A DNA stretch of 64,000 nt from Actinokineospora bangkokensis (GTDB lineage Bacteria > Actinomycetota > Actinomycetes > Mycobacteriales > Pseudonocardiaceae), in NCBI RefSeq assembly GCF_001940455.1, contig NZ_MKQR01000009.1, forward strand, positions 369,873 to 433,872, in the 5' to 3' direction. The notes below the pieces were generated by a model. That model saw only the letters and a list, made by a program, of their open reading frames with translations. It did not search any database and had not been told where the DNA came from. How positions within the stretch are numbered: the stretch's first letter is position 1; each line of letters starts with the position of its first letter. The position numbers and the translations under genes are program-made. Positions 36,593 to 64,000 of this stretch are shown here, piece after piece.

Positions 36593-36659
36593 GAATTTCT
36601 CCGCGATTCCACTCTGAGGTCTGGGATGTCCGCTTCCGGCCGGTGCTGTCCGCACCGGG

Positions 36660-37365: not shown

Positions 37366-38406
37366 TCAGCCCTCGGTGGGGCAGTAGGTCTCCACCTGGA
37401 CGAGCCCGGCGCGCATCGCCGCGATCCCGAGCTGGAACCGGGTCTCGACCTCCAACCGCTCGAACATCGCGGTCAGGTAGCGGCGCAGCGTCCTGGTCGA
37501 GATGCCCAGCGCCCGCGCGATCGCCTCATCGGTGTCACCGCGGGTCAGCGCCTGCAGGATCGCCAGCTCGATCTCGCCGAACACCCGGTTGTCGTAGGAG
37601 ATCTCCTCCACCGGCTGCGCCCGGTCCCAGATGTGGTCGAAGATGCTGACCAGGAAGTCCAGCACCACCGGGTCGCGCACCACCGCGGCGCCCGGGCCCT
37701 CCTCGGCGGGCAGCGGCACCAGCGCCACCGACCGGTCCAGCAGGATGATCCGGCTCGGCAGCATCGGCGCGGTGCGCACCGTCCCGCCCAACCCGCGCAG
37801 CAGCCGCATGTACTCGATGGAGTCCTGCTGCCTGCGCGCGGTGTGCGGCCAGACCACCTTGTAGTCCACCCCGCGCGCGAGCAGGGCGCGGTCGAGGGCC
37901 AACCCCTCGCGCAGCACCTCCACCGGTGCCATGGTGGGGTGCACCGCCATCACCTCGCGCTGGGCGCTGCCCGCCAGGTCGCTGAGCCTGCGGCGCACCT
38001 GCTCGCTGCCGCGCACCAGCTCGGTGCTGGAATCGGCGGACTGCTTGCGGCGCGCGGCCCGGTGCAGCGGTTCCAGCGACCCGAGCACCGCGCGCACGGA
38101 CTCGGTGCGCTCGGTCAGCTCCCGCACCCGCTCCTGCAGCGGTGCCAGGGACGCGGCGATCGCGGTGTCGGGGGCCACGGCCTCCCACCCGCCGGGCAGC
38201 GCCAGCGCCGGGCGCACCAGGTGCATGGCCGCCAACCGGTGCAGGTCGGGCAGCGCGGGCCTGCCCACCGCGCCCGAGCACTCGTCGGTGGTGAGCGGTC
38301 CCTCCAGCAGCACGCCGTAGACCTCGACCAACGCCGGGTCCAGCGATGGCCCGACCCCGTGGCCGAGGTCCCCGCCGCGCGCAACAACGTCATCGTCGTC
38401 AACCAC
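37366..38406 (-). CDS. TrmB/LuxR-type transcriptional regulator (full length)
   Basis: 346 residues. The N-terminal region (about 20-80, EVYGVLLEGPLTTDECSGAVGRPALPDLHRLAAMHLVRPAL) is a winged helix of TrmB type. A coiled segment (LQERVRELTERTESVRAVLGSL) and an effector domain with PSRIILLDRSVALVPLP follow. The C-terminal GerE-type HTH (EIELAILQALTRGDTDEAIARALGISTRTLRRYLTAMFERLEVETRFQLGIAAMRAGLV) binds DNA. GTG 38406 is chosen for the AGGGGG just upstream. It lies next to sbnB and the NRPS operons and is the best candidate pathway regulator; its ligand is unknown. Confidence 0.8.
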   Translation of the reverse strand: MVDDDDVVARGGDLGHGVGPSLDPALVEVYGVLLEGPLTTDECSGAVGRPALPDLHRLAAMHLVRPALALPGGWEAVAPDTAIAASLAPLQERVRELTERTESVRAVLGSLEPLHRAARRKQSADSSTELVRGSEQVRRRLSDLAGSAQREVMAVHPTMAPVEVLREGLALDRALLARGVDYKVVWPHTARRQQDSIEYMRLLRGLGGTVRTAPMLPSRIILLDRSVALVPLPAEEGPGAAVVRDPVVLDFLVSIFDHIWDRAQPVEEISYDNRVFGEIELAILQALTRGDTDEAIARALGISTRTLRRYLTAMFERLEVETRFQLGIAAMRAGLVQVETYCPTEG

Positions 38407-38537
38407 GGTTCCCCCTGCGTGCGGGGACCGCTCACCGCCGGGTTGTCCCGACCGGGTGGTGCTCGCGGTCACCGCGGGACGGACAGTAGCGCTCCGCACT
38501 GACCGCGACCACCGGGTCGGACCACGAAGATCCACGG

Positions 38538-38570: not shown

Positions 38571-39641
38571 TCAGCCCACGGCACCCCGGTAGAAGTCCGG
38601 AACCGCCTGCCCACCACCGGAACCGGTCACGCGGTCGTGCGCCCAGCCGCCCACGGCCAGGTCCAGCACGCCCAACCCGAACGGGGCGAACACCACCGCC
38701 CGGCCCGGCTCCGGCACGACCTCCCCGCGCAGCACGCCCGCGATGGTGCCGTGCACGAAGTCGCGGTGGCCCACCACCTGCTCGGCCAGGTGCAGCGAGG
38801 TGCGCTCGCGCACCGCGTGGTCGACGTCGTCGGTGATGTTCGTGGCGGCCAGCACCACCTCCGGCGCCAGGTCGCGCAGCGACAGGTGCAGCACGACGGG
38901 GGCGTGGGCCAGCAGCGCCGGGTCGTGCACGTGCGGCTCGCCCGCGACGGTGGCCAGCACCACCAGGTCGCAGCCGAGGAATGCCCCCGACACCTCGTCC
39001 ACCACGGTGGTGTCGTCCGCCCCGGGCATGCCGTCGGCGGCGATCGCGGCGGCGAAGCGCTCGGCGTTGGCGCGGCGGGTGTCGAACAGGTTCCAGCCGC
39101 CCACCGCCCAGCCCAGGTCGCGCAGGAACCGGCGCACGTGCTCGGCGATCAGGCCGGTGCCCACCACGCCGACGCGGGTCGCGCGGCGCGCGCCCACCAG
39201 CGCCTCGGCCGCCAGCACCGCCGACCCGGCGGTGCGGGTGGCCGAGATCAGCGAGGACTCCAGCACCGCGTACGGGTAGCCGCTGGCGTAGTCGTTGAGC
39301 ACCAGCATCGCCGAGGCGCGCGGGATGCCGTGCTCGGTGTTGCCCGGGTAGCTGGCGATCCACTTGATCCCCGACACCGGGCGCTGCCCGCCGAGGAAGG
39401 CGGGCAGCGCGATGATCCGGTCGCGCGCCCGCTCCGGGAAGCGCAGGAAGCTGCTGTGCGGGTTGACGGTGTCGCCGTCGTGGTGGGCCAGGTAGGCCGC
39501 CCGCACGGCCGCCAGCGCGCCCTCGCGGTCGGACTCGATGACGGCGCCGATGTCGCCCGCGCCGATCACGCGCAGCTCGGGGACGGCGACGACCTCCTGG
39601 TCGGGCTCGGCGGCGCGCGTCGGTTCAGCGGTGGCAGTCAT
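38571..39641 (-). CDS. sbnB: SbnB-like dehydrogenase for L-2,3-diaminopropionate synthesis
   Basis: 356 residues of the ornithine cyclodeaminase/mu-crystallin family. The NAD site is RVGVVGTGLIAEHVRRFL; GGQRPVSGIKWIASYPGN, GIPRASAMLVLND, LHLSLRDLAPEVV and the tail match 2,3-diaminopropionate biosynthesis protein SbnB. In staphyloferrin B synthesis SbnB oxidatively splits N-(2-amino-2-carboxyethyl)-glutamate to L-Dap, 2-oxoglutarate and NADH. It follows sbnA by 88 bp on the same strand and ends at a hairpin. The product L-Dap is presumably a monomer for the divergent NRPS. Confidence 0.9.
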   Translation of the reverse strand: MTATAEPTRAAEPDQEVVAVPELRVIGAGDIGAVIESDREGALAAVRAAYLAHHDGDTVNPHSSFLRFPERARDRIIALPAFLGGQRPVSGIKWIASYPGNTEHGIPRASAMLVLNDYASGYPYAVLESSLISATRTAGSAVLAAEALVGARRATRVGVVGTGLIAEHVRRFLRDLGWAVGGWNLFDTRRANAERFAAAIAADGMPGADDTTVVDEVSGAFLGCDLVVLATVAGEPHVHDPALLAHAPVVLHLSLRDLAPEVVLAATNITDDVDHAVRERTSLHLAEQVVGHRDFVHGTIAGVLRGEVVPEPGRAVVFAPFGLGVLDLAVGGWAHDRVTGSGGGQAVPDFYRGAVG

Positions 39642-39729
39642 GTGCTGGTGCTCCGGTTCTGGGGGTTCTGGAGGGGTTTCGGGCGGTTTCGGCGGCGGCG
39701 CGGTCCGTGCGCGGTTCAGGGGTGCCGCT

Positions 39730-40740
39730 TCAGGCGGGCGCCGGGTCGAGCAGGGTCGCCGCCCACGCCGGGTTGTAGATGGTGTCGGCGTAGGCGGTGC
39801 CGCGGTCGGCGCACAGGAACACCGCGGTGGGGCGGGGACCGGCGCCGCCCGCGGGCAGGTCGGCGAAGTAGCGGGTCAGCGCCGAGTAGACGGTGCCGGT
39901 GGACCCGCCCGCGTAGAGGCCGTGCTCGCGCAGCAGGTCGTGGCAGCCGCGCACGGTGTCGGGCTCGGACACGATGAGCACCTCGTCGATGAGCGCCTTG
40001 CCGATCAGCGGCGGCACCATGCTCGACCCCAGGCCGGGGATGCGGCGGGTCTTGGGCGCCCCGCCGAAGATGGCCGAGCCCTCGGCGTCCACCGCCACCA
40101 CCCGCACGCCCGGGTAGGCCTCCTTCAACCGCAGCGACACCCCGCCGATCGTGCCGCCGGTCCCGGCGCCGATGAACGCGTAGTCGATCCGGTCGAACGC
40201 GCGCACCAGCTCACCACCGGTGAGCAGGTAGTGCGCCTCCACCGCGTCGGCGTTGCCGTACTGGTCGGGCCAGAACGCCGCGGGCAGCTCCGCCCGCAGC
40301 GCCGCCACCCGGCGCAACCGGGTCGCCAGGTAGCCGCCGGTGGCGTCGCGCTCGGTCACCTTCTCCACCCGGTCGCAGGTCAGCCGCAGGTAGGCCTCGG
40401 TGGAGGCGTTGCAGTTCGGGTCGATCACCGGGACGAAGTCGATGCCCAGCACGCGGCAGAACGAGGCCATCGACAGGGCGAAGTTGCCCGAGGAGGACTC
40501 CACCACGGTCGTGCGCTCGGTGACGTCCCCGCGCTCCACGGCGCGCTTGAGGATCCAGAACGCCGAGCGGTCCTTGGAGCTGCCGTTGGGGTTGGCGTAC
40601 TCCAGCTTGGCGTGCAGGTCGACCGCGCCGTGGCGCAGCGGGACGAGCGCGGTCTCGCGCATCGCCCCACCGATGCGCGCCAGTCCGCTCGCCAGCGGAC
40701 CCAGGGTCGTCAGGTCGGGGCCGCTCGCGGTAGCGGTCAC
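39730..40740 (-). CDS. sbnA: SbnA-like PLP enzyme for L-2,3-diaminopropionate synthesis
   Basis: 336-residue fold-type II PLP enzyme of the cysteine synthase group. The PLP lysine is in ANPNGSSKDRSAFWIL, the substrate loop reads VVESSSGNFALSMASFC, and the phosphate cup GAGTGGTIGGVS. SbnA replaces the phosphate of O-phosphoserine with glutamate to give the substrate of SbnB. GTG 40740 has GGAGG upstream. It lies 68 bp after the ABC permease gene on the same strand, so the order transporter, sbnA, sbnB forms one probable operon opposite the NRPS genes. Confidence 0.9.
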   Translation of the reverse strand: MTATASGPDLTTLGPLASGLARIGGAMRETALVPLRHGAVDLHAKLEYANPNGSSKDRSAFWILKRAVERGDVTERTTVVESSSGNFALSMASFCRVLGIDFVPVIDPNCNASTEAYLRLTCDRVEKVTERDATGGYLATRLRRVAALRAELPAAFWPDQYGNADAVEAHYLLTGGELVRAFDRIDYAFIGAGTGGTIGGVSLRLKEAYPGVRVVAVDAEGSAIFGGAPKTRRIPGLGSSMVPPLIGKALIDEVLIVSEPDTVRGCHDLLREHGLYAGGSTGTVYSALTRYFADLPAGGAGPRPTAVFLCADRGTAYADTIYNPAWAATLLDPAPA

Positions 40741-40808
40741 GCCAGGTCACCTCCAGTGCGGCGGCGGGACGGTCCCGCGCGCCCGTCGGGGCTGGGCGGC
40801 ACGGCCGC

Positions 40809-41627
40809 TCAGCGGGTGGCGGTGCGCCGGTAGGCCCGCACCGCGAGCGGCGCGGCCACCAGCAGCAGGGCCAGCACCAGCGCGGTGCCCACGGCCAGCG
40901 GGTGCTGACCGGGCAGGCTGTCGGCGGTCGGGCCGGTGGCGTTGCCGAACAGCTGCCTGCACGCGGTGACCACGGCGCTGAGCGGGTTCCACTCGCACAC
41001 CGCGCGCAGCCACCCGGGCAGACCGGTCAGCGGGATGAAGGCGTTGGACAGGAACGTCAGCGGCAGCACCACGAGCACGGCCACCGAGCTGATCGCCTCG
41101 GCGTCGCGCAGCAGCAACCCCAGCAGGGCGCCCAACCAGGACATCGCCAGCCCGAGCAGCAGCAGCAGGCCGAAGCCCAGCAGCGCGTCGAGCACCCCGG
41201 CGCGCAGCCGCCAGCCGATCCCGTAGCCCACCCCGGACATGACCAGGATGGACAGCGCGGACACCACCACCGCCGACGCGGTGCGCGCGGCCAGCACCGA
41301 CCCGCTCGACATCGGCAGCGACCGGAACCGGTCCACCAACCCGTTGCCCAGGTCGGTCGCCACGCCCAGGGCGGTGCTCGACAGGTTCGTCAGCATCGTC
41401 TGGGCGAGGATGCCCGCCATCAGGTAGTCCTGGTAGTCGCCGCCCGGGGCGGCCATCGCGCTGCCGAACAGCACGCCGAACAGCGCCACGTAGGCGACCG
41501 GCATGACGGTGGCGCTGAGCAGCTTGGCGGGCATGCGCAGCAGGTGGCGCATCTGCCTGCCGAACAGCGCCGCGGTGTCGCTGAGCGCGCCGACGAGGGC
41601 GGGGGTGGCGGGGGTGGCGGTGGTCAT
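40809..41627 (-). CDS. ABC-2 type transporter permease (DrrB-like)
   Basis: 272 residues with six hydrophobic segments. The cytosolic N terminus (ALFGRQMRHLLRMPAKLLSATVMPVAYVALFGVLFGSAM) and the ABC-2 signature near TFLSNAFIPLTGLPGWLRAVCEWNPLSAVVTACRQLFGN are characteristic of drug-export permeases. Its ATG overlaps the TGA of the ATPase gene (41624-41627). With that ATPase it probably exports the NRPS product or provides self-resistance. Confidence 0.88.
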   Translation of the reverse strand: MTTATPATPALVGALSDTAALFGRQMRHLLRMPAKLLSATVMPVAYVALFGVLFGSAMAAPGGDYQDYLMAGILAQTMLTNLSSTALGVATDLGNGLVDRFRSLPMSSGSVLAARTASAVVVSALSILVMSGVGYGIGWRLRAGVLDALLGFGLLLLLGLAMSWLGALLGLLLRDAEAISSVAVLVVLPLTFLSNAFIPLTGLPGWLRAVCEWNPLSAVVTACRQLFGNATGPTADSLPGQHPLAVGTALVLALLLVAAPLAVRAYRRTATR

Positions 41628-42565
41628 GCTGCGGCTCCGTGTCCGGTCAGGGCGAGGAAGACGTCGTCGAGGGAGGGGCGGCGCACGCCGAAGTCCTCGA
41701 CCTCGACGCCGAGGGCGGCCAGCGCGGCGGCGGCCTCGGCGATCGCGCCGATGCCCGGGCGCAGGCCCACCTGCACCACCCGCTCGCCCACCGCCACCGC
41801 GGCCTCGGCACCGACCCGGCTCAGCGCGGCCGCGGCGGTCGCGGACTGGGCGGGGTCGGCCAGCGTCACCGCCAGCCGCTCCCCGCCGACCTTGCGCTTG
41901 AGCTCGTCGGGGGTGCCCTCGGCGATGACCTGCCCGGCGTCGACCACGACCACGCGGTCGGCGAGCTGGTCGGCCTCCTCCAGGTACTGCGTGGTCAGCA
42001 GCACCGTCACCCCGGCCTGCACCTGGGACCGGATGCGCTGCCAGAGGGTGTTGCGGCTGTGCGGGTCCAGCCCGGTGGTCGGCTCGTCGAGGAAGAGCAC
42101 CGACGGCTCGGCGACCAGGCTCGCGGCCAGGTCCAACCGCCGCCGCATGCCCCCGGAGTAGCCCTTCACCGGGCGGTCGGCGGCGTCGGTGAGCTCGAAG
42201 GAGGCCAGCAGCTCCTCGGCCACCGCCCGTGCCCTGGCCCGGCCCAGCCGGTGCAGGACACCGACCAGGCGCAGGTTCTCCCGGCCGGTGAGGGTGTCGT
42301 CGAGCGCGGCGTACTGGCCGGTGAGCCCGATGCGCCTGCGCACCTCGGCGGGCGCGCGGCGCACGTCGTGCCCGGCCACGGTCGCGGTGCCGCCGTCGGC
42401 GTCGAGCAGCGTCGCCAGGATCCGCACGGTGGTCGTCTTGCCCGCGCCGTTGGGGCCCAGCACGCCCAGCACGCTGCCGCTGGGCACGGCCAGGTCGATC
42501 CCGCGCAGCGCCTGGTGGCTGCCGTAGTCCTTGCGCAGGCCCTCGGCCTCGATCGCGTAGTCCAC
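41624..42565 (-). CDS. ABC transporter ATP-binding protein (DrrA-like)
   Basis: 313 residues. Walker A GPNGAGKTTTVR, Q loop GQYAALDDTLTG, signature YSGGMRRRLDLA, Walker B VLFLDEPTTGLDP and H loop TTQYLEEADQLADR are all present. The C-terminal extension ending VEDFGVRRPSLDDVFLALTG is the DrrA-type regulatory tail of antibiotic exporters. GTG 42565 has a GAGG site 7 bases upstream. First gene of the minus-strand operon; its promoter shares the 243-bp gap with the NRPS promoter. Confidence 0.9.
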   Translation of the reverse strand: MDYAIEAEGLRKDYGSHQALRGIDLAVPSGSVLGVLGPNGAGKTTTVRILATLLDADGGTATVAGHDVRRAPAEVRRRIGLTGQYAALDDTLTGRENLRLVGVLHRLGRARARAVAEELLASFELTDAADRPVKGYSGGMRRRLDLAASLVAEPSVLFLDEPTTGLDPHSRNTLWQRIRSQVQAGVTVLLTTQYLEEADQLADRVVVVDAGQVIAEGTPDELKRKVGGERLAVTLADPAQSATAAAALSRVGAEAAVAVGERVVQVGLRPGIGAIAEAAAALAALGVEVEDFGVRRPSLDDVFLALTGHGAAA

Positions 42566-42655
42566 TCGTGCACCTCGGTTCGCTCGCGGCGGTGGCACGC
42601 CTGCTCCGGCGTGCGCCACCACTCAAGCAGCGGCGCCCGCGCCCGCCCAGCGCGT

Positions 42656-42737
42656 TGCAGCAAGCTGAAACCCCGTTGCCGGGCAACGCATCCCCGGCCC
42701 GACCAGCGGTGCAGCTAGCTGCAAGGCGATTGCCGGG
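42656..42737. promoter_or_regulatory. 28-bp imperfect direct repeat in the NRPS/ABC divergent promoter
   Basis: Copies at 42656-42683 and 42710-42737 agree at 22 of 28 positions by hand alignment. Each begins with a dyad: in the second it is the perfect palindrome TGCAGCTAGCTGCA (42710-42723), and each ends TTGCCGGG. A 7-bp-arm inverted repeat (CGTTGCC, G, GGCAACG) overlaps the first copy at 42674-42688. The gap 42566-42808 must hold both promoters, so these are candidate binding sites of the pathway regulator. Confidence 0.6.
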
Positions 42738-42808
42738 GCGAGCGCGGGATCCCGACACTGGCTGCACCCCGCCCCCCGTGCCGCACCGCGAGCGAAGGTG
42801 ATCCCCGA

Positions 42809-45800
42809 ATGAACGCTGCGCCCCCGCGCCTGCCGTTGACGGCCGCCCAGTCCGGCGTCGTCTTCGCCCAGCGCCTCGACCCGGCGAACCCGGTCTACAA
42901 CATCGCCGAGCACGTCGAGGTCGCCGCGCGGGTGGACGCCGGGCTGCTGCGCGCCGCCCTGGTGACGGTGCTCGCGGAGGCCGAGGCGCTGCGGGCGCGG
43001 GTGTCGGTCGACGCCGACGGGACCGCCACCCAGGCCATCACCACCGCCACCGACCCCGGTCTGTCCGAACTGGACTTCTCCGCCGCGGCGGACCCGGAGG
43101 CCGAGGCGACCGCGTGGATGCGCGCGGAGCTGGCCACCCCGGCCGACCTCGACGGCGGCCCGCTGTTCGCCTTCGCCCTGCTGCACGTGGGCCCCGACCG
43201 GTCCTGGTGGTACCAGCGCTACCACCACGCCCTGCTCGACGGCGTGGGCATGTCGCTGGTGCAGCGGCGCGTCGCGGAGGTCTACACCGCGCTGTGCGGG
43301 GGCGGCCCCTGCGGCCCCAGCCCGTTCCCGCCGCTGCGCGAGCTGGTGGAGGAGGAGCGCGACTACCGCGCAGGCGAGCGCTTCGAGCGCGACCGCGCGC
43401 ACTGGGCCCAAGCGCTGGCCCACCGCCCCGAACCGGTCAGCGTCACCGGCGACCGGCCCGTCATGCCGCACCGGCTCGACCGCAGGCGCGCGCACCTGAC
43501 CGGGGAGGACATGGCCGCCGTGCGCGGGCTGGCCCGCGAGGTCGGCTGCGCCTGGCCCGCGGTGGTCGTCGCCGCGTTCGGCGCCTACCTGGGCAGGCTC
43601 ACCGGCGCCCGCGAGGTCGTGCTCGGCATCCCGGTCTCCGCCCGCCCCAAGGGCCCGGCCGCCGGGGTGCCCGGGATGGTGTCCAACATCGTCCCGCTCG
43701 TGCTGCCCGCCGACCCCGCCGCCACCTGCGGCGAGCTGACCGCGGCCGCCTCGACCCGGCTGCGCGCCGCGGTGCGCCACCAGCGCTACCGGTACGAGGA
43801 CATGCGCCGCGACCTCAAGCTGGTCACCGACGACGCCCGGCTGGTCGGCCCGCACGTCAACATCGTCCTGGTCGACCAGGACGACCTGCGCTTCGGCACC
43901 GCCCCCGCCCGGCCGGTCAACCTCGCGGGCGGCCCGGTCGACGAGCTGTCGCTGGTCATCGACGCCCGCGGCGCCGGGCAGGGCGTCGACCTCGTCCTCG
44001 ACGCCAACCCCGACCTGTTCGGCCCGGCCGCGCTCGACGCCCTGCACGCCCGGTTCACCGCCTTCACCGCCGCGTTCGCCGCCGCGGGCCCCGAGGCGCC
44101 GCTCGCGGCCCTGGAGGTGGCCACCCCCGACGAGCTGGACCTGGTGCTGCGCCGGTGGAACGACACCGCGCGCCCCAACCCCGTCGAGACCGCCGTGGAC
44201 CTGCTCGACGCCCAGGCCGCGGCCACCCCGGACGCCGTCGCCGCCCGCCACGGCGGCACCGCGCTGACCTACGCCGAGCTGCACGGGCGCGCCAACCGCC
44301 TCGCCCGGCTGCTCGTCGAGCGCGGGGCCGGGCCGGAGACCGCCGTCGCCCTGTGCCTGCGCCGCACCCACGACCTGCTCGTGGCGGTGCTGGCCGTGCT
44401 CAAGTCCGGCGCCTCCTACGTCCCGGTCGACCCCGCCTACCCCGCCGACCGCATCGCGTTCATGCTCGCCGACGCCGCGCCCGTGCTCGTGCTCACCGAC
44501 ACCTCGGCCCGCTCGGCCCTGCCCGGGGGCGACCACGCGCTGCTCGTGCTCGACGAGACCGACACCGCCGCGCTCGACCCCGCCCCGCTGACCGACGCCG
44601 ACCGCCGCGCCCCGCTGCGCCCGGCCACCGCCGCCTACACGATCTTCACCTCCGGCTCCACCGGCCGCCCCAAGGGCGTCGTCGTCGAGCACGCCGCCCT
44701 GGCCGACCTGCTGCGCTGGGCCGCGGCGGACTTCGGGCCCGCGCGGCTGGCGCACGTGCTCGCCGCGACCTCGCTCAACTTCGACGTCTCGGTCTTCGAG
44801 CTGCTGGGCCCGCTGGCCTGCGGCGGCTCGGTCGAGGTCGTGCGCGACCTGCTCGCGCTGGCCGAGCAGCCCGGCGCCCGCTGGTCGGGCACCCTCGTCA
44901 GCGCCGTGCCCTCGGCCCTGGCCCAGGTGCTCGCCCACGGCGGCGTGCGCGTCGAGGCCGGGGACGTGGTGCTCGCGGGGGAGGGGCTGTCGCTGCCCAA
45001 CGCCCGCCTGGTGCAGGAGACCGTCCCCGGCACCCGGCTGTCGAACATCTACGGCCCCACCGAGGCCACCGTCTACGCGACCGCCTGGTACGCCGACGGC
45101 CCGGTGGCCGCCGCGCCGCCCATCGGCGCCCCCATCCGCAACACCCGCGCCTACGTGCTGGACACCGCGCTGCGCCCGGTGCCCCCCGGCGCCACCGGCG
45201 AGCTGTACCTGGCCGGTGCCGGGCTCGCCCGCGGCTACCTCGACCGCCCCGGCCTGACCGCGCAGCGGTTCGTCGCCGACCCCTTCGGCGGCCCCGGCGA
45301 CCGCATGTACCGCACCGGCGACGTCGTGCGCTGGAACCCCGACGGCGACGTCGAGTACCTCGGCCGCGGCGACGACCAGGTGAAGGTGCGCGGGTTCCGC
45401 ATCGAGCTCGGGGAGGTCGAGACCGCCGCCGCCGCGCACCCCTCGGTCGCCCAGGCCGCGGTGGTCGTCCGCGAGGACACCCCCGGCGTCAAGCAGCTGG
45501 TCGCCTACCTCGTCGGCGCGGGCGGTGCGTCCGCCGACGTCGACGGCGTGCGCTCGGCGCTGGCCGCGGCGCTGCCGGAGTACATGGTGCCCGCCGCGTT
45601 CGTCGAGCTGGACCGGTTGCCGCTCAACCCCAACGGCAAGCTCGACCGCAAGGCCCTGCCCGCCCCCCGCTACCTCGCCGCCGGGGCCGGTGACGAGCCC
45701 GCCGACGAGTCCCAGCGCCTGCTGTGCGAGCTGGTCGGGGACGTGCTCGGGGTCGACGGCGTCGGCCCCGCCGACAGCTTCTTCGACCTCGGCGGCGACA

Positions 45801-48800
45801 GCATCGTCGCCATCCGGCTCGTCTCCCGCGCCCGCGAGGCCGGGCTGCTACTCACCCCGCGGCAGGTCTTCGACGCCCGCACCCCCGCCGCGCTCGCCGC
45901 CGTGGCCGAGCGCGCCGGGCGGGCGCCCGCCGCCGCGGGCACCGGCCAGGGCACCGGTGCGCTGGCGCCGCTGCCCATCGTGGCCGACCTGTTCGACCGC
46001 GGCGGCCCCGTCGACGGCCTGCACCAGGCCGTCCTGCTCGACACCCCGGCCTGGCTCGACCCCGACGGGTTCGCCACCGCCCTGCAGGCGCTGTTCGACC
46101 ACCACGACGCCCTGCGCACCCGCGTCGTCGTCGACGCCGACCACTGCGGGCCGCGCCTGGAGGTGGGCGCGCCCGGTTCGGTGCGCGCCGCCGACCTGAT
46201 CACCCGGGTCCCCGCGGGCACCGACGTCGAGGAGGCGACCCGCGCGGCCTGGCAGCGGCTGTTCCCCGAGGACGGGGTGCTGGCCCAGGTCGTGTGGTTC
46301 GACGGCGCCCGGCGGGTCCTGCTCGTCCTGCACCACCTGCTCGTCGACGGGGTGTCCTGGCGCATCCTGCTGCCCGACCTGGCCCAGGCCGCCACCGCCG
46401 TGGCCGCGGGCGACCCGGTGCGCCTGCCCGAGGTCGGCACCGCCTACCGGTGGTGGGCCCAGCAGCTGTCCACACTGGACCGATCGGGTGAGGCGGGGCT
46501 GTGGCGGGAGCACCTGGCCGTGGCTGACCCGCGCTTCGGCGACCGCGCCTTCGACCCCGCCCGCGACACCCGCGCCACCACCGCGACCACCACCCTGCGG
46601 GTGCCCGGCGCGCTCGCCGCCGAGCTGCTGGGCCCGGTCGCGGCCGCCTTCGGCGGCGTGGCCGAGGTGCTGCTGGCCGGGCTCGCGCTGGCCGCGGAGT
46701 CGGTGCGCCCGGCGGGCGGCCTGCTCGTCGACGTCGAGACCCACGGCCGCGCCGACGTGCTGCCCGGGGTCGACCTGTCCCGCACCGTCGGCTGGTTCAC
46801 CGCCGTGCACCCGCTCGGCATCGACCTGTCCGGTGTGGACCTCGGCGACGCCATGGCGGGCGGGCGTTGCGCGGGCACCGCCGTCAAGCGCGTCCGCGAC
46901 CTGCTGCGGGCCGTGCCCGACAGCGGCGTCGGCTACGGCGTGCTGCGCCGCGCGGGCGGGCTGCCCGGGGCCGCGGTGCCGCAGGTGTGCTTCAACCACC
47001 TCGGCTCGCTCGTCCTGCCCGACCTGGGGGAGTGGGCGCTCGCCGACGCCCCCGCCGTCCCCGGCGACCACGACGGGGCCCGCCCCGCGCACGCGGTCGA
47101 GGTCACCACCCTGGTCACCCCCGACGGCGGCCTCACCGCGCACGTCACCGCCGCCGTCGACGCGGTGGGCCACGACCTGCCCGCCGACCTGGTCGCCGCC
47201 TGGCAGCAGGCCTTGGCCGCCATCGCCGCGCACGTCGCCGCCGTCGGCGGCCGCGTCGGCGCCACCCCCGGCGACTTCCCGCTGGTCGAGCTCGACCAGG
47301 ACCGGGTCGACGCGCTGGAGCTGCGGTACGGCCCGCTGCGCGACGTGCTGCCGCTGGCCCCCCTCCAGCGCGGGCTGCTCTTCCACGCCCGCTTCGACGA
47401 CGCCGAGGCCGACGTCTACACCGTCCAGTTCGGGTTCGACGTCGACGGCCCGGTCGACGAGACCGCGCTGCGCGCCGCCTTGGCCGCCCTGCTGCGCAGG
47501 CGCCCCGAGCTCGGCGCCGCCTTCCCCGCGGGCGGCGGCGACCCGGTGCAGGTGCTGCCCGCCGAGGTCGAGGTCCCGCTGGCCGTGCACGACCTGTCCG
47601 CGGCCCCCGACCAGGCCGCGCGGCTGGCCGCTGTGCAGGCCGCCGACCGCGGCGCCCGGTTCGACCTGGCCGCCCCGCCGCTGCTGCGGGTCGCGCTGTT
47701 CCGCCTCGGCGGCGGCAGGCACCGGATCACCCTGACCAACCACCACATCCTGCTCGACGGCTGGTCCACCCCCATCGTCGCCACCGAGCTGTTCGCCCTC
47801 TACGGCGACGCGGGCGCCGACCTCGGCCCGGCCCGGCCGTTCCGCGACCACCTGGCCCACCTCGCCGCGCTGCCCGCCGAACCCGCCCGCCAGGCGTGGG
47901 CCGCCGAGCTGGCCGGGGTCGAGGAACCGACCCTGCTGCTGCCCACCGAGCGCCCCGAGCACGCCGCCGAACCCGCCCGGGTCAGCGTGCACGTGCCCGC
48001 CGCCCCGCTCGACGCGCTGGCCCGCGCCCGCGGGATCACCACCAACACGCTGGTGCAGGGCGCGTGGGCGCTGCTGCTGTCCGCGCTCACCGGCCGCACC
48101 GACCTCACCTTCGGCGCCACCGTCAGCGGCCGCCCCGCCGACCTCGACGGCGTGGAGACCATGGTCGGGCTGTTCATCAACACCGTCCCCGTGCGGGTGC
48201 GGCTCGACCGGCACCGCCCCGCCCTGGACGCCTTCGCCGACACCCAGGACCGGCAGGCGGGCCTGGTGCCCCACCAGCACCTCGGGCTGGCCGAGGTGCA
48301 GCGCCTCGCAGGCGTCGGGGAGCTGTTCGACACCCTGGTGGTGTTCGAGAACTACCCGCTCGACCCGTCCGCGCTCACCCTGCCCGGCGCCACCATCACC
48401 GGCATCGACGGCGTCGACGCCACCCACTACCCGCTGACCCTGATGGCCGTGCCTGGCCCGGAGCTGGAACTGCGCCTGGGCCACCGCCCCGACCTCGTTG
48501 ACGCCGACGCCGCGCGGCTGCTGCTCACCCGCCTGCGCCGCGTCCTGGACACCCTCGTCGCCCACCCCGATGCCACCCCCGCCCAGATCGACGTGCTCGG
48601 CGACGACGAGCGCCACCTGGTGCTGCGCGGGTTCAACGACACCGCCGCCGACCTCCCCGACACCACGCTGACCGCCCTGCTCGCCGCGGCCGCCGCGCGC
48701 ACCCCGCACGCCGAGGCCCTGGTGTTCGAGGACCGCTCGCTGACCCACGCCGAGTTCGACGCCGAGGCCAACCGGCTCGCCCGGCTGCTGGTCGAGCGCG

Positions 48801-51800: not shown

Positions 51801-51853
51801 TGGTGTCGGTCAGCCAGGACGACATCGACGAGTTCGAGGACCTCCTCGACTGA
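42809..51853 (+). CDS. Nonribosomal peptide synthetase 1: C-A-PCP-E-C-A-PCP-E
   Basis: 3014 residues, two modules, each with an epimerase. C1 (1-430) has HHALLDG at His139 and resembles the EntF C domain, which takes an aryl or acyl donor. A1 (about 455-960; TSGSTG from 614) gives a hand-read code of about D-V-F-S-V-A-I-V-Y-K, which I cannot assign. PCP1 has Ser998 in LGGDS. E1 has [10 protein letters not shown] (His1175) and FNHLG. C2 has HHILLDG (His1645). A2 (TSGSTG from 2104) reads D-V-W-H-L-S-L-V-D-K, a serine code. PCP2 has Ser2490, and E2 has [10 protein letters not shown] (His2673). So it adds X1, D-configured, then D-Ser. The tail [13 protein letters not shown] is acidic and may dock to NRPS2, 109 bp downstream. 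No start-loading A domain and no TE. Confidence 0.93.
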
Positions 51854-51962
51854 GCCGGGCCCCCGGACCCGGCACCCCCCGACCCGCCACGCGCACGGCC
51901 CCGCACACCGACGACCAGCCTGCGCCACCCCTCTTGCGAGACGAAGCCCTAGGAGACGACTG

Positions 51963-54900: not shown

Positions 54901-57900
54901 TGCTGGGCGTCGCGGGCGTCGGCGCCCAGGACAACTTCTTCGACCTGGGTGGCGACAGCATCATGTCCATCCAGCTCGTCAGCCGCGCCCGCCGCGCCGG
55001 GTTCGTCCTGACCCCCAAGGACATCTTCACCCTGCGCACCGTCGAGGCGCTGGCCGCCGCCGCCCGCCCGGTGGCCGAGGCCGTGCGCACCGACCCGGAC
55101 GCCGGCACCGGCGTCGTGCCGCTCACCCCGATCGTGCACTGGCTGCGCGAGCACGGCGGCCCGGTCGACTCCTTCCACCAGTCGACCCTGCTGCGCGTGC
55201 CCGCGGGCCTGGACCCCGTGCACCTGGGCACCGCGCTGACCGCGCTGCTCGACCACCACGACGCGCTGCGCCTGCGGCTGACCCGCGCGGGCGGTGTGGT
55301 GTGGGGCCTGGAGGTCCCCCCGCGCGGCTCGGCCACCGCGAACGTGTCCATCGTGGACGCCCGCGCCGCCGACCTGGCCGAGCTGGTCGCCACCACCGCC
55401 CGCGCCAAGGCCGCCGAGCTGTCCCCCGAGCGCGGCGACCTCGTGCGCGCGGTGTGGTTCGACCGCGGTGCCGAGCCCGGCCGCCTGCTCGTCCTCGTGC
55501 ACCACCTCGCCGTCGACGGCGTGTCCTGGCGGGTGCTGCTGCCCGACCTCGCCGCCGCCTACGCCGCGGCCGCCGCGGGCCGCAGGCCCGAGCTGGACCC
55601 GGTCGGCACCCCGCTGCGCGCGTGGGCCGAGCACCTGGCCGCCGCCGCCCAGGACCCCGCCACGCTGGCCGAGATCCCGTACTGGACGGGGGTCGTGCGC
55701 GCCGACGAGCCGCTGACCCCCGCCCCGGTGCGCGACCGCGACACCGTGGCCACCGTCCGCGACCTGCGCGTCGAGCTGCCCACCGCGGTCACCGAGGCGC
55801 TGCTGACCGACGTGCCCGCCGCCTTCCGCGCGGGCGTGCAGGACGTGCTGCTCACCGCCCTGGCCGTCGCCGTCGCCGACTGGCGCGCCCGCCGCGGGCA
55901 CACCAGCACCGCGGCGCTGCTCGACCTGGAGGGCCACGGCAGGCACGAGGTCGACGGCACCGACCTGTCCCGCACCGTCGGCTGGTTCACCGCCCTGCAC
56001 CCCGTGCGCCTGGACCTCGACGGCCTCGACACCGCCGACGCCCTCGCGGGCGGCGACGCCGCGGGGGCCGCGCTGAAGTCCGTCAAGGAGCAGCTGCGGG
56101 CCGTCCCCGGCCACGGCACCGGCCACGGCCTGCTGCGCCACCTCAACCCGCAGACCGCCGCCCTGCTGGCCGCGGGCGAGTCGCCCCGGCTCGGCTTCAA
56201 CTACCTGGGCCGGTTCAGCGCCACCGACGCCGACTGGGCCCAGGCCCCCGAGGCCGCGGGCCTCGGCGGCGGCATCGACCCGGCGACCCCGCTGCCGCAC
56301 GCGCTGGAGCTGACCGCCGTCACCGAGGACCTGGCCGACGGCCCGCACCTGACCGCCACCTTCGCCTGGGCCGGGCACCTGCTGGCCGAGGACGACGTGC
56401 GCGAGCTGGCCGGGGCGTGGACCCGCGCGCTGACCGCGCTCGTCGAGCACACCGCCCGGCCGGGCGCGGGCGGGGCCACCCCCTCGGACTTCCCGCTCGC
56501 CCGGCTCACCCAGGCCGAGCTGGACGCCGTGCTGCCGACCGTGCCCGCGGGCGCGGACCTGCTGCCGCTGTCGTCGTTGCAGGCGGGCCTGCTCTTCCAC
56601 TCCCTCTACGACCAGGGCGCCGACGTCTACACCGTGCAGCTCGCGGTGGACCTCGTCGGCCCGGTCGACGCCACCGCCCTGCGCCGCGCCGCCGACGCCC
56701 TGCTGGCCCGCAACCCCGGGCTGCGCCTGGGCTTCCGCCACGACGGCCTGGCCACACCGGTCGCCTTCGCCCCCGCCGCGGTCACCGCGCCCTGGCGCGA
56801 GGTCGACCTGACCGGCGCCGACGACGCCACCGTCGACGGGCTGCTGGCCGAGGACCGGGCCGCCGGGTTCGACCTGGGCGCCCCGCCGCTGGTCCGGTTC
56901 ACCCTGGTGCGCCTGGCCCCCGAGCGGCACCGCTTCGTGCTCACCAACCACCACGTGCTCTTCGACGGCTGGTCCATGCCGCTGCTGGCGGGCGAGCTGT
57001 TCGCCCTCTACGCCGGGCAGACCCCGGCCGCGGCACCGCCGCCGCAGGACTACCTGCGCTGGTTGGCCGCCCAGGACCGCGACGCCGCCCGCCGCGCGTG
57101 GGCCGACGTGCTCGCCGGGGTCGAGGAGCCCACGCTGATCGCGCCGGGCGCCGCGGGCACCGCGCCGGGCGCGCCGCAGCGGCTGGTGCTGCGCACCCCG
57201 CTCGCCCCGCTGACCGCGTTCGCCCGCGGCCGCGGCCTGACCCTCAACACCGTCGTCCAGGGCGCCTGGGGCCTGCTGCTGTCCGGGCTCACCGGCCGCG
57301 CCGACGTCGTCTTCGGCGCCACCACCTCCGGCCGCCCGGCCGAGCTGCCCGGCGTCGAGGCCATGATCGGGCTGTTCATCAACACCCTGCCGGTGCGCGT
57401 CGCGCTGCGCCCGGACGAGCCGGTCGCCGCCCTGCTGGGCAGGCTCCAGGAGCAGCAGGCGTCCCTGCTGGCCCACCAGTACCTCGGCCTCACCGAGGTG
57501 CGCGAGGTCGCGGGCACCACCGAGCTGTTCGACACGCTCACCGTGTTCGAGAACTACCCGCTCGACCCGGCGGCCGTGCGGCTGCCCGGCGGGCTGCGCG
57601 CCGAGGCCGCCCGGGTCGACGACAGCACCCACTACCCGCTGACGCTGATCGCCCTGCCCGACGGCGAGCACCTGACCCTCACCCTCGACCACCGCGCCGA
57701 CGTGGTCGACGCCGAGGCCGCGCAGGCCGTCGGCGCCCGCCTGCTCGCCCTGCTGGCCCTGCTCACCGACGCCCCCGACACCCCCGTCGGCCGCGTCGAC
57801 GTGCTCACCCCCGCCGAGCGGGAGCGGCTGCTGGCCGCCTCCCGGGGCGCCGAGCGCGACACCCCCGCCGACACGGTCCACCAGCGCTTCGCCGCCCAAG

Positions 57901-60900
57901 TCGCCCGCACCCCGGACGCGGTCGCCCTGCACACCGCGGGCACCCGGATCACCTACGCCGAGCTGGACGCGCGGGCCAACCGGCTCGCGCACCGGCTGAT
58001 CGGCCTGGGCGTGCGGCCGCAGGACACCGTGGCGCTGTACCAGCAGCGGTCGGTCGACCTGGTCGTCGCCACCCTCGCGACGCTCAAGGCGGGCGCCGCC
58101 TACGTCCCGCTCGACGCCCGCAGCCCCCGCGCCCGGCTCACCGCCGTCCTGGAGACCACCGGCGCCGCCGCCCTGCTCACCGACCGGGCGCTGCGCGACG
58201 ACCTGCCGGAGAACTCCTGCCGGGTGCTCGTCGTCGACGACGACCTGGCGCTGGCCGCCCAGCCCGCCACCGACCCCGGTGCCGCCTGCCACCCGGACGC
58301 GCTGGCCTACGCCATGTTCACCTCCGGCTCCACCGGCGTGCCCAAGGGCGTCGCGGTCACCCACCGCGACGTGCTCGCCCTGGCCACCGACAGCGCCTGG
58401 GACGGGCCCAACCAGCAGCGGGTGCTGCTGCACTCCCCGCACGCCTTCGACGCCTCCACCTACGAGCTGTGGACGCCGCTGCTGTCCGGCCGCGAGGTCG
58501 TGGTGGCCCCGGCGGGCGAGCTGGACCTCGCGGAGCTGGCGGAGGTCATCCGGACCGGCGGGGTGACCGGGCTCTGGCTCACCGCGGGCCTGTTCCGGCT
58601 GCTGGCCGAGGAGGACCCCGGCTGCTTCGCCGGGGTGCGCGAGGTGTGGTCGGGCGGCGACGTCGTGCCCGCCGCCCTGGTGCGCAAGGTGCTCACCGCC
58701 AACCCCGGCCTGGTCTTCGGCGACGGCTACGGCCCCACCGAGACCACCACCTTCGCCACCTACCACCGCGTCGACGACCCGGAGCGGGTCGGGCAGACCG
58801 TGCCCATCGGCAGGCCGCTGGACGGCATGCGCGCCCTGGTGCTCGACGACCGGCTGCGGCTGGTGCCGCACGGCGTCGCGGGCGAGCTGTACATCGGCGG
58901 CCTCGGCGTCTCCCGCGGCTACCTGGGCCGCCCCGGCCTGACCGCCCACCGGTTCGTCGCCGACCCGCACGGCGGCGCCGGGCAGCGGCTCTACCGCACC
59001 GGCGACGTCGTGCGCTGGACCGGCGCGGCGGACCGGCCGGTGCTGGAGTTCGTCGGCCGCGCCGACGAGCAGGTCAAGATCCGCGGCTTCCGCATCGAGC
59101 TGGGCGAGGTCGAGGCCGCCATCGCCGAGGTCGAGGGCGTGGCGCAGGTCGCGGTCATCGTCCGCGAGGACCGCCCCGGCGACAAGCGGCTGGTCGCCTA
59201 CGTCGTCGGCACCGCCACCACGGGGGCGCTGCGCGAGCACGCCGCCGCCGCGCTGCCGGAGTACATGGTCCCCGCCGCGTGGGTCGAGCTGGGCACCCTG
59301 CCGCTGACCGCCAACGGCAAGCTGGACCGGCGCGCCCTGCCCGTGCCGGACCTGACCAGGGACAAGGCGTCGCGGGCGCCGCGCAGCCCGCGCGAGGAGC
59401 TGCTCTGCGGCCTGTTCGCCGACGTGCTGGGCGTGCCCGCGGTCGGCATCGACGACGGGTTCTTCGCCCTGGGCGGGCACTCGCTGCTGGCCACCCGCCT
59501 GGTCAGCCGCATCCGCACCGCCCTGGGCATCGAGGTGCCGGTGCGGGCGCTGTTCGAGGCGCCCACCGTCGCCGGGCTGGTCGGCGTGCTCGACGAGTCG
59601 GCCCGCGTCCGGGTGCCGCTGGTGCCCGCCGAGCGCGGGGAGCTGGTGCCCGCGTCCTTCGGCCAGCGCCGCCTGTGGTTCCTCGACCGGCTGGAGGGCG
59701 CCGAGTCGCCCTACAAGATCCCGATCGGCCTGCGCCTGCGCGGCACCCTGGACGTGCCCGCGCTCACCGCCGCCCTGCGCGACGTGGTGGGCAGGCACGA
59801 GGTGCTGCGCACCGCCTACCCCGAGGTCGGCGGCGAACCGGTGCAGCTGGTGCTCGACGTCGACGCCGCCGCCCCGCCGGTGCTGGTCCGCGAGCTGCCC
59901 GAGGCCGAGCTGCGCGCCGCGGTGCTCGACGAGGTCGCCAGGGGCTTCGACCTGGCCACCGAGGGCCCGCTGCACGTGACCGCCTACCGGGTCGACGAGC
60001 AGGAGTGGTTCCTGCTCATCGTCCTGCACCACATCGCCGGTGACGGCTGGTCGATGGCCCCGCTGGCCCGCGACCTGTCCACCGCCTACACCGCCCGGCT
60101 GGCCGGTGCGGGTCCGGAGTGGACGGACCTGCCGGTGCAGTACGCCGACTACGCGATCTGGCAGCGCGCGGTCATGGGCTCCGAGGACGACCCCGGTTCG
60201 CAGATCGCCCAGCAGGCCGCCTACTGGCGCGACACCCTCGCCGGGCTGCCCGACGAGCTGGAGCTGCCCGCCGACCGGCCCCGGCCCGCCGCGCCGACCT
60301 ACGCGGGCGGCACCCTCCTGTTCGACCTCGACGCCGAGCTGCACGCCAAGCTCGGCGCCTTGGTCGCCGACGGGCAGGCCAGCCTGTTCATGGTGCTGCA
60401 AGCCGCCGTGTCGGCGCTGCTGACCCGGCTGGGCGCGGGCACCGACATCCCGCTGGGCTCCCCGATCGCGGGCCGCACCGATGAAGCGCTCGACGAGCTG
60501 GTCGGGTTCTTCGTCAACACCCTGGTGCTGCGCACCGACACGTCCGGCGACCCCACCTTCCGCGAGCTGCTCGGCCGGGTGCGGGAGACGGTGCTCGGCG
60601 CCTACGCCCACCAGGACCTGCCGTTCGAGCGGCTGGTGGAGATCCTGAACCCGCCGCGCTCGATGGGCCGCAACCCGCTGTTCCAGACCCTGCTGGTGCT
60701 CCAGAACAACCGCACCGGCGACCTGGCGCTGCCCGGCCTGGCCGTCGAGGTCGAGCCGACCGGGGCGCACGCCGCCCAGTTCGACCTGTCGTTCGACTTC
60801 ACCGAGCGCACCGCCGACGGCCGCCCCGCCGGGCTCGCGGGCCGCTTCGACTACAGCAGCGAGCTGTTCGACGCCGCCACCGCCCAGGCCGTGCTGGACC

Positions 60901-63900
60901 GGCTCACCCGGCTGCTGCGCGCCGTCGCGGACGACCCGGACGTGCGCGTCAGCGCCGTCCCGCTGCTCGGGGAGCAGGAGCGCGCCCGGCTGCTGACGGA
61001 GTTCACCGACACCGCCGCCCCGCTCGACATCGCGGGCAGCAAGGGCATCGTGGAGCGGGTCCGCGCGCTGGCGGTGTCCACACCGGACGCCACCGCGCTC
61101 GTCGACGACGCGGGGACCTGCTCCTACGCCGAACTGGCCGCCCGGGCGGGCGCGCTGGCCGCCGAGCTGTCCGACGCCCGCACCGGCGACATCGCCGCCG
61201 TGCTGTCCGACCGCTGCGCCCTGGTGCCCACCGCGTTCCTCGGCGTGCTCTGGGCCGGTGCCGCCTACACCCCGCTCGACCCGAAGGCCCCCGCCGCGCG
61301 CTCCGCGGGCCTGCTGCGCGACAGCGGTGCCCGCTGGCTGCTGGCCGCCCCGGCCCGCGCCGAGCAGGCCGCCGCGCTGGCCGCCGAGGCGGGCACCGGC
61401 GTCCGGGTCGTCGTGCTCGACGAGGACCTGCTCGGGCGGCGCGGCCCGCTGCCCGAGGTGCGCGGGGAGGACGACGACCTCGCCTACGTCATCTTCACCT
61501 CCGGGTCCACCGGCAAGCCCAAGGGCGCCATGGTCCACCGGCTCGGCATGGTGAACCACCTGCTGTGCAAGGTGGAGGACCTGGAGCTGGCCCCGGGTGG
61601 CGCGCTGGTGCAGAACGCGCCGCTGTCGTTCGACATCTCGGTGTGGCAGATGCTCGCCGCGCTCGCCGCGGGCGGCACCACCCGGGTCGTCGGCGACGAG
61701 ACCGCGCAGGACCCCGACGCGCTGTTCGCCCTGACCCGCGACGAGCACATCGGCGTCCTGGAGGTCGTGCCCTCGCTGCTGCGCACCGCCCTGGACGCCT
61801 GGGACGCCGGTGCCGAGGTGCCCGCCCTGGACCGCCTGCGGTACCTGGTGGTCACCGGCGAGACGCTGCCCGCCCCGGTGTGCGCCCGCTGGTTCGAGCG
61901 CTTCCCCGGCATCCCGCTGGTCAACGCCTACGGGCCCACCGAGTGCTCCGACGACGTCACCCACGCGGTGCTGGCGTCGATGGCCGACATCCCCGGCACC
62001 CGGGTGCCCATCGGCCGCTCCATCCGCAACACCCGCCTCTACGTGCTCGACGAGCTGCTCAACCCGGTGCCCCTCGGGGTCGTCGGGGAGCTGTGCGTCG
62101 GCGGCGTCGGGGTGGGCCTGGGCTACCTGGGCGACCCGGAGAAGACCGCCAGGGCCTTCGTCGACGACCCGTTCGAGCCCGGCGCCCGCCTCTACCGCAC
62201 CGGCGACCGCGTCCGCCACCTGCCCGACGGGCGCATCGAGTTCCTGGGCCGGGTCGACCACCAGGTGAAGATCCGCGGCCAGCGCATCGAGCTGGGCGAG
62301 GTCGAGGCCGCGCTGCGCGGCCTGCCCGGGGTCTCCGACGCGGTCACCGCCGTGCACGCCGACCCCGCCGGGCAGAACCGCCTCGTCGGGTACGTGCTCG
62401 GCCTCGACGACGCCCGCGGCCTGCGCGACGCGCTCGGCGCCGTGCTGCCCGAGGCGATGGTGCCCTCGGTCGTGCTGGCGCTGGCGGAGTTCCCGCTCAC
62501 CCGCAACGGCAAGGTCGACCGCAAGGCGCTGCCCGCACCCGACTTCGGCGCGGTGGCCACCGGCCGCGCGGCCCGCACCCCCGCCGAGCACGTGCTGTGC
62601 GCGGTGTTCGCGGAGGTCCTGGGCGTGGCCGCGGTGGGCGCCACGGACGACTTCTTCGACCTGGGCGGCCACTCCCTGCTGGCCACCCGCCTGGTCAACC
62701 GCGTCCGCGCGGTGCTGGGCGTGGAGCTGCCGGTGCGGGTGCTGTTCGAGTCGCCCACCCCGGCCGCGGTCGCGGAGCGGCTCACCGGGGCCGGTGGCGC
62801 CCGCGCCGCGCTGACCGCCCAGCCGCGGCCCGAGCGGGTCCCGCTGTCGTTCACCCAGCGCAGGCTGTGGTTCCTCAACCAGCTGGAGCCGGGGTCGGCC
62901 GCCTACAACGTGCCGCTGGCGCTGCGCCTCGACGGCGCGCTGGACGTGGCCGCGCTGCGCGCCGCGCTGGCCGACGTGGTGGGCAGGCACGAGAGCCTGC
63001 GCACCCGCTTCCCCGAGGTCGACGGCGAACCCCACCAGCTCGTCGTGCCCGCCGCCGAGGCCGCGCCCGCGCTGCCGGTGACCGCGCTGCCCGCCGCCGA
63101 GGTGGGCGCCGCCGTCGCCGCGGCCGCCCGCCGCGGCTTCGACCTGGGCACCGACCTGCCGCTGCGCGCCGACCTGCTCGCCGTCGGCGCCGAGGAGCAC
63201 GTGCTGGTGCTGGTGGTCCACCACATCGCCAGCGACGGCGGCTCGGCGGGCCCGCTGGCCCGCGACCTGGCCGCCGCCTACACCGCCCGCGCCGAGGGCC
63301 GCGCCCCGGCCTGGTCGCCGCTGCCGGTGCAGTACGCGGACTTCGCGCTGTGGCAGCGGCGGGTGCTCGGCTCCGACACCGACCCGGGCAGCCCGCTGTC
63401 CGCGCAGCTCGCGCACTGGCGCACCGCCCTGGCCGGGCTGCCCGAGGGCATCGAGCTGCCCACCGACCGCCCGCGCCAGGCCACCTCCGAGTTCGCCTCC
63501 GGCTCGGTCGAGCTGGCGCTGCCCGCCGAGCTGCACGCCCGGCTCGACGGCGTGGCCAGGGCGCACTCGGTGAGCCTGTTCATGGTCGTGCAGGCGGCGC
63601 TGTCGGCCCTGCTGACCCGGTTGGGCGCGGGCACCGACATCCCGCTGGGCTCCCCGGTCGCGGGCCGCACCGATGAAGCGCTCGACGACCTCGTCGGGTT
63701 CTTCGTCAACACCCTGGTGCTGCGCGCGGACACCTCCGGCGACCCCACCTTCGCCGAGCTGCTGGACCGGGTCCGCGAGACCGACCTGGCCGCCTTCGCC
63801 CACCAGGACCTGCCGTTCGAGCGGCTGGTGGAAGAGCTGAACCCGCCGCGCTCGATGAGCAGGCACCCGCTGTTCCAGGTGGTGCTGTCCTTCCAGGGCC

Positions 63901-64000
63901 ACACCCCGGTCGCCGCCGAGCTGCCCGGCCTGCGGATCACCGGCCTGCCGGTGTCCTCGGGCGGGGCGAAGTTCGACCTCACCGTCCACCTGGCCGAGCA
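51963..64000 (+). CDS. Nonribosomal peptide synthetase 2 (partial): C-A-PCP-E-C-A-PCP-C-A-PCP-C...
   Basis: Runs off the window after about 4012 residues. GTG 51963 follows AGGAG at 51951-51955. Module 3: C with HHILLDG (His156), A (TSGSTG 617; code about D-A-L-L-V-G-A-V-A-K, hydrophobic/aromatic, unassigned), PCP Ser999 (LGGDS), E (His1180, FNYLG). Module 4: C (HHVLFDG, His1663), A (2120; D-A-Y-W-W-G-G-T-F-K, Val-like), PCP Ser2507 (LGGHS). Module 5: C (HHIAGDG, His2689), A (3179; D-I-W-E-V-T-A-D-D-K, acidic pocket, possibly Dap), PCP Ser3571 (LGGHS). Module 6: C (HHIASDG, His3753), cut off. LGGDS carriers precede E domains and LGGHS carriers precede C domains, a consistent internal check. 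Frame verified at the start, near 54200 and at the end. Confidence 0.92.
60420..60533 (+). repeat. Near-identical tract shared by C domains of modules 5 and 6 (copy 1)
   Basis: About 114 bp in the C5 domain match 63612-63725 in C6 with only about four differences, including third-codon positions. It encodes the [33 protein letters not shown] block. Identity at silent sites points to recent duplication or gene conversion. Confidence 0.75.
63612..63725 (+). repeat. Near-identical tract shared by C domains of modules 5 and 6 (copy 2)
   Basis: Partner of the tract at 60420-60533, offset 3192 bp, inside the C6 domain of NRPS2. Shorter identical stretches follow in both (for example the region encoding [11 protein letters not shown]). 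Confidence 0.75.

Follow-up and report, generated by a model that had tools for sequence, protein, structure and literature searches.

The coprisamides, reported in 2015 and 2021 according to the references of PMC9321520, are cyclic heptapeptides containing beta-methylaspartate (MeAsp), 2,3-diaminopropanoate (Dap) and a 2-heptatrienyl cinnamoyl unit (PMC4778507). Coprisamides A and B come from Streptomyces sp. SNU533. Coprisamides C and D are cyclic depsipeptides from Micromonospora sp. UTJ3 (PMC11119530). For coprisamide C, a table in a review gives the string '6*-cacyc(slV7*D(beta-m))V', where 7 stands for Dap, 6 for 2-(6-methyl-1,3-heptenyl)phenyl-propenoic acid and -c for cinnamoyl (PMC13192320). 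We read this string as cinnamoyl, D-Ala, D-Ser, D-Leu, Val, Dap, MeAsp and Val, that is seven residues. Here, we describe a gene cluster of ~43 kb in Actinokineospora bangkokensis (genome of 7.45 Mb) that is very probably a coprisamide-type cluster for a cinnamoyl-containing nonribosomal peptide (CCNP). Most of it lies in a stretch of 64,000 nt, hereafter the window (assembly GCF_001940455.1, contig NZ_MKQR01000009.1, positions 369,873 to 433,872).

In cinnamoyl clusters, genes for an isomerase, two or three ketosynthase/chain length factor (KS/CLF) pairs, a ketoreductase (KR), a dehydratase (DH) and an acyl carrier protein (ACP) lie beside those for a nonribosomal peptide synthetase (NRPS) (PMC6510318, PMC9321520, PMC9381841), and several of them contain LuxR regulators (PMC9381841). 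The coprisamide cluster has a MIBiG entry, BGC0002378 (PMC12837462), and a coprisamide-like cluster is mentioned for Kitasatospora sp. MAP12-44 (PMC11537117); genome miners were thus already aware of the type. Neither PMC9321520 nor PMC6510318 contains the words 'diaminopropion-' or 'methylaspart-'.

The peptide assembly line

The cluster runs from window position 35936 to about 78668 (contig position is window position + 369872, and positions past 64000 continue the count). The window ends inside the second of two NRPS genes, so that five adenylation (A) domains lie within it, while A6 begins past 64000 and the genes for a type II polyketide synthase (PKS), a DSBA-fold protein and a mutase lie beyond. 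Pfam profiles (judged, like those of NCBIfam, against curated cut-offs) find four condensation-type stretches, two AMP-binding domains and two carrier (T) domains in NRPS 1, five, four and four, respectively, in NRPS 2, and one thioesterase (TE) in all. In a motif scan, the core HHxxxDGVSW of epimerization (E) domains occurs after T1, T2 and T3 only. Read to 66728, the line therefore consists of exactly six modules, the first three with epimerases, and a terminal TE (Table 1), in keeping with an earlier note on this DNA that had counted at least six modules and three epimerases.

Pocket codes were read from alignment columns anchored on A2. They are DVFSVAIVY for A1, DVWHLSLVD for A2, DALLVGAVA for A3, DAYWWGGTF for A4, DIWEVTADD for A5 and DLTKLGMVN for A6. 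That of A2 is what we take to be the standard Ser code, while DAYWWGGTFK appears in print as a Val code, in friulimicin PstD among others (PMC9113097); on these codes, A2 is a predicted Ser domain and A4 a predicted Val domain. The A5 pocket, with E278, D330 and D331, is the only acidic one among the six and, given the presence of sbnA and sbnB, is predicted to accept Dap. K278 of A6 recurs in printed Asp and 3-methyl-Glu codes (PMC9113097) and, together with the mutase genes, points to (methyl)Asp. The codes of A1 and A3 do not settle their substrates, which are probably Ala and a Leu-like residue, calls that rest on the match to coprisamide. The Ser and Val codes and the three acidic A5 residues had been proposed in the earlier note, as had a start X(D)-D-Ser-D-X-Val-Dap. 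The alignment bears out the codes and residues, and the start is supported, with Dap at module 5 predicted from genes and pocket.

The first six positions of coprisamide C, as printed, have the pattern D,D,D,L,L,L, which is that of a line with E domains in modules 1-3 only. Ser at position 2 and Val at position 4 agree with the A2 and A4 codes, and Dap at 5 and MeAsp at 6, the predicted substrates of the last two modules, each have biosynthesis genes in the cluster. The match is to the printed structure rather than to the sequence of BGC0002378, and the cinnamoyl tail of the window product is itself a prediction. The earlier note regarded the peptide as undescribed, recognizing no known product with this order, a view that is not supported, coprisamide C having been printed with the same order and D/L pattern over six residues. 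The cluster very probably adds to known coprisamide-type CCNP clusters. The diagnostic half of it, with the PKS, isomerase-like and glutamate mutase-like genes, was out of that reader's sight past the window end.

Predicted supply of Dap and MeAsp

SbnB and SbnA, the enzymes of Dap biosynthesis, both score above their NCBIfam cut-offs. SbnB is 58-73% identical across seven compared clusters, and the best solved relative of SbnA is S. aureus SbnA (5d87, E 2.8e-61). The earlier note had placed the two genes back to back with the NRPS. They do accompany it, but a drrA/drrB pair lies between, sbnB, sbnA, drrB and drrA being on the minus strand and divergent from the NRPS genes on the plus strand. 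At the other end of the cluster, a GlmS-like B12-binding protein and MutE pass their Pfam cut-offs, and the two solved structures related to MutE at E <= 1e-5 are both chains of glutamate mutase. MutE by itself is not specific: counting the present genome, 43 of 397 genomes of the order have a relative at E <= 1e-10.

Dap/2,4-diaminobutyrate (Dab)-like A domains and glutamate mutase also occur in lipopeptide or siderophore lines. This low specificity leaves some room for a friulimicin/laspartomycin-like lipopeptide or, given sbnAB, a staphyloferrin-like siderophore, which we nevertheless regard as extremely unlikely products of a line that has six modules only and is accompanied by a type II PKS. 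Among the annotated cluster genes there is neither a fatty acyl-AMP ligase nor a siderophore synthetase. Finding a type II PKS and a glutamate mutase downstream led us to drop the siderophore reading; the friulimicin-like lipopeptide was rejected in view of the six modules and the lack of a fatty acyl-AMP ligase among the cluster genes annotated.

The acyl chain and a proposed pathway

Beyond the NRPS lie a KR, two DHs, an ACP and two KS/CLF pairs, Cys-His-His being kept in both KSs and absent from both CLFs, followed by genes for an alpha/beta hydrolase, a hot-dog protein and the DSBA-fold protein. The latter has no NCBIfam match at 0.001 and no solved relative at E 0.01; relatives with 48-67% identity occur in 13 of 20 examined loci with related KSs. 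It presumably shares its fold with YsfG, EpcL and GlaV and, by this analogy, we infer that it is an isomerase. The three named proteins are the isomerases of cinnamoyl clusters (PMC9321520, PMC9381841). The genes thus include a discrete type II PKS set, an adjoining isomerase-like gene and an NRPS opening with a condensation (C) domain, as expected of a CCNP cluster. The skyllamycin, WS9326A, kitacinnamycin, epoxinnamide and globisporamic acid clusters have the same KR, DH, ACP, KS/CLF pairs and isomerase beside an NRPS, but they differ from that of the window in making other peptides.

In the pathway that we propose, the type II PKS (two KS/CLF pairs, KR, DH, ACP) would build a polyene in which the DsbA-fold isomerase would set one double bond cis, permitting closure to a benzene ring and thereby formation of a 2-alkenyl-cinnamoyl-ACP. 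From this ACP, the 2-alkenyl-cinnamoyl group would be passed to the first residue by the starter C domain of NRPS 1, and the six modules would add D-Ala (probable), D-Ser, D-Leu (probable), L-Val, L-Dap supplied by SbnA/SbnB and 3-methyl-Asp formed from Glu by the B12 enzyme GlmS/MutE. Release by the TE would close a ring, most simply through an ester between the last residue and the Ser side chain, and DrrA/B would export the product. The tail of coprisamide C is branched (PMC13192320). Three complete Micromonospora clusters possess a KSIII gene, which is absent from the stretches read around the window cluster, and the tail of the window product is therefore likely straight-chain. Conversely, the KSIII gene in those clusters would agree with the branched tail of coprisamide C. 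With a predicted product class, predicted precursors and a mass signature, the cluster is now testable.

Related clusters in other genomes

A contig scan with the KS of the cluster returned 80 loci, of which the first 20 were examined. A full PKS-side set, with two KS/CLF pairs, hydrolase, hot-dog and DSBA-fold genes, is present in 12 of them; two, in Prauserella halophila and Solihabitans fulvus, have both mutase subunits and ten have no mutase (locus L055 stops at the contig end, so its missing mutase carries no meaning). The P. halophila cluster is complete (NZ_JAMTCQ010000008.1, about 1.200-1.242 Mb) and collinear from sbnB to mutE, with 45-81% identity gene by gene, the same gene content and order and six modules of the same types; it differs by an additional ~1.3 kb between sbnA and drrB. 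Complete clusters were also found in two genomes of the window's family, G893 and G917. In both (loci L193 and L188, respectively), a protein of ~450 aa, by eye a pyridoxal phosphate enzyme of the SHMT type, is encoded between sbnA and drrB, a place where the window has no room for a counterpart. Before its glmS, G917 further carries what by eye looks like a carboxyltransferase gene, the G893 counterpart of which is shortened.

A third genome of the family, G180 (loci L194-L196, G180:C4:82001-130000), has the same NRPS, sbnAB, drrAB and mutase genes, while its PKS set is distant from that of the window (50% identity for KS, 32% for DH1 and 32% for the isomerase) and is placed at the opposite side. 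The same peptide core is therefore found with two acyl-chain machineries, and comparison of G180 with the other clusters sets two very different PKS sets side by side.

A5-like domains (E <= 1e-130) occur in 40 of 297 genomes of the family and nine of 394 of the class (own genome in both), with no such match in any of the 15 congeners listed. We read this as Dap/Dab/Orn-type A domains being common, and the A5-like domain was dropped as a marker for the cluster as not specific. A query with A6-T-TE was specific, giving four matches at 66-67% identity in 160 Micromonospora genomes; the next by E-value was 48% identical over the same length, and partial matches to the A domain only reached 59%. 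The RpoB proteins of the four matching genomes are 97.8-98.3% identical to that of Micromonospora rosaria, and the queried genus is therefore taken as Micromonospora. Three of these clusters (G1011, G287 and G163) are complete, and in each of them sbnA adjoins a KSIII gene of which the five remaining regions showed no counterpart; the fourth, G1044, is cut by a contig end and was seen in part.

Nine related clusters are thus available for comparison, two of them (G1044 and S. fulvus) with partial lines. The seven complete lines (P. halophila, G893, G917, G180, G1011, G287 and G163) have the same domain order and near-identical codes. In the alignments, the codes are identical for A1 in 7/7 clusters in which it was read, A4 in 8/8 and A6 in 10/10, with conservative changes only in A2, A3 and A5; for A1 of G163, six code letters were read and all agree. 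In the window's family, the distribution of the cluster looks patchy.

Weighing the coprisamide-type assignment

A number of observations weigh against the assignment. To read '6*-cacyc(...)' as a cinnamoyl group followed by 'a' is an interpretation, and the printed string may contain errors. The first six letters of the A1 code are those of printed piperazate codes, from which the later positions differ (PMC5031334, PMC3943440), so that Ala at A1 is not proven; a literature search with code fragments gave no paper for A3, A5 or A6. The mutase subunits, which pass the Pfam cut-offs, score below the NCBIfam equivalog cut-offs (145.9 of 390.1 bits for TIGR01503, 41 of 135.8 bits for TIGR01501) and are therefore homologues rather than equivalogs. 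The KS/CLF genes lie left of sbnAB in the three complete Micromonospora clusters, whereas they lie right of the NRPS in the window cluster. No ring-closing enzyme of the Kcn17-19/YsfX kind was identified, no search having been aimed at such enzymes. Finally, coprisamide has a seventh residue, Val, for which the window line has no module: all eight complete lines, that of the window included, have six modules and a TE, and a screen for further conserved genes around seven of these clusters revealed neither a ligase nor a module that could account for such a residue.

The lack of an identified ring-closing enzyme would suit a product in which the same peptide core carries a linear polyenoyl tail, made by an ishigamide-like type II PKS, and no cinnamoyl group. 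In the same vein, among solved structures the KS has its best match in 6kxd ('Ketosynthase'), which we take to be the ishigamide KS, and G180 joins the same core to a far more distant PKS. Such a tail is nonetheless unlikely, in view of the recurrence of the two KS/CLF pairs with DsbA-like, hydrolase and hot-dog genes in the 12 KS-related loci, mostly without a mutase. Moreover, an isomerase with two or three KS/CLF pairs is typical of cinnamoyl clusters (PMC9381841), and the nearest known peptide has a cinnamoyl group (PMC4778507, PMC11119530).

The mismatch between six modules and seven residues, together with A1 and A3 substrates that the codes leave unproven, could alternatively be taken as the mark of a scaffold unrelated to any known product. 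We consider this very unlikely, since coprisamide is matched in residue order and D/L pattern, in Dap and MeAsp, in the cinnamoyl machinery and in the presence of the line in the producer genus. The same mismatch is the reason why our claim is limited to 'coprisamide-type' and does not extend to 'coprisamide'. For a coprisamide-type cluster we can offer a tentative explanation, which is that these lines either make hexapeptide 'nor-Val' members of the group (with a straight-chain cinnamoyl tail in the case of the window) or have the branching Val added by a non-colinear route, for example by using module 4 twice or by loading Val in trans onto the free Dap amine. Two neighbouring genes in G1011, at first candidates for adding the seventh residue, were rejected, a FemAB-like gene that was not seen as conserved and a stand-alone AMP-ligase with only 28-32% matches in other regions. 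The comparison has in this way brought to light a residue of coprisamide that is unexplained by the assembly line.

Features of the cluster and its surroundings

Table 1. Genes of the probable coprisamide-type cluster, in window positions
Feature	Position	Strand	Evidence or remark
LuxR-type regulator, GerE domain, probable cluster member	35936..36904	-	Pfam GerE 31.6 bits, cut-off 23.5
Second LuxR-type regulator, start codon not fixed	37366..38490	-	Pfam GerE 33.6 bits
SbnB, 2,3-diaminopropionate biosynthesis	38571..39641	-	TIGR03944 389.2 bits, cut-off 326.9
SbnA, 2,3-diaminopropionate biosynthesis	39730..40740	-	TIGR03945 375.3 bits, cut-off 349.95
DrrB-like ABC exporter membrane protein, start approximate	40809..41630	-	TIGR00025/TIGR01247, both under cut-off
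DrrA-like ABC exporter ATPase	41624..42622	-	TIGR01188 349.6 bits, cut-off 312.45
NRPS 1, 3014 aa	42809..51853	+	C(starter)-A1-T-E-C-A2-T-E
NRPS 2, 4921 aa	51963..66728	+	C-A3-T-E-C-A4-T-C-A5-T-C-A6-T-TE
Rest of NRPS 2, most of module 6 and TE	64001-66728	+	Past window end
FabG-type KR	67100-67849	+	TIGR01830 321.8 bits, cut-off 297.75
FabZ/FabA-like DH 1	67846-68250	+	
FabZ/FabA-like DH 2	about 68241-68711	+	
ACP	68792-69052	+	
KS, first pair	69054-70262		
CLF, first pair	about 70262-71434		
KS, second pair	71418-72551		
CLF-like, second pair	72551-73372		
Alpha/beta hydrolase	73369-74172		
Hot-dog protein	74169-75152		
DSBA-fold protein	75152-75898		Pfam 57.4 bits
B12-binding protein (GlmS-like mutase subunit)	75898-76341		Pfam 50.4 bits, cut-off 32.1
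MutE	76338-77597		Pfam 263 bits, cut-off 26.6
Protein without Pfam family	77551-78144		
DUF3995 protein	78141-78668		

Homologues of the first LuxR-type gene, with 42-48% identity, are present in four of six compared cluster regions. The last two genes of Table 1 are conserved next to the four clusters compared within the window's family, whereas the two Micromonospora regions showed neither.

Elsewhere in the window, in which an Rfam search gave no match, positions 12001-14000 have a GC content of 46%, against about 70-78% in the surroundings. This low-GC stretch contains a gene (12086-13807, plus strand) for a 573-aa AAA ATPase of the AbiEii/OLD/GajA kind, likely a horizontally acquired defence-type gene, behind which an open reading frame (13941-14501) has no family match. 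A tRNA-Leu (gag) called by ARAGORN at 17446-17522 (minus strand) is probably spurious or else an unusual overlap, as it lies inside the frame of a cyclic nucleotide-binding histidine-kinase-like protein (17288-18721, minus strand). The latter adjoins a gene (18723-20432, minus strand) for a response regulator domain fused to a pyridine-nucleotide oxidoreductase, and together they look like an unusual signalling pair. Other large NRPS regions containing condensation domains occur in the same genome, at C13:218731-300461 and C18:105564-191623.

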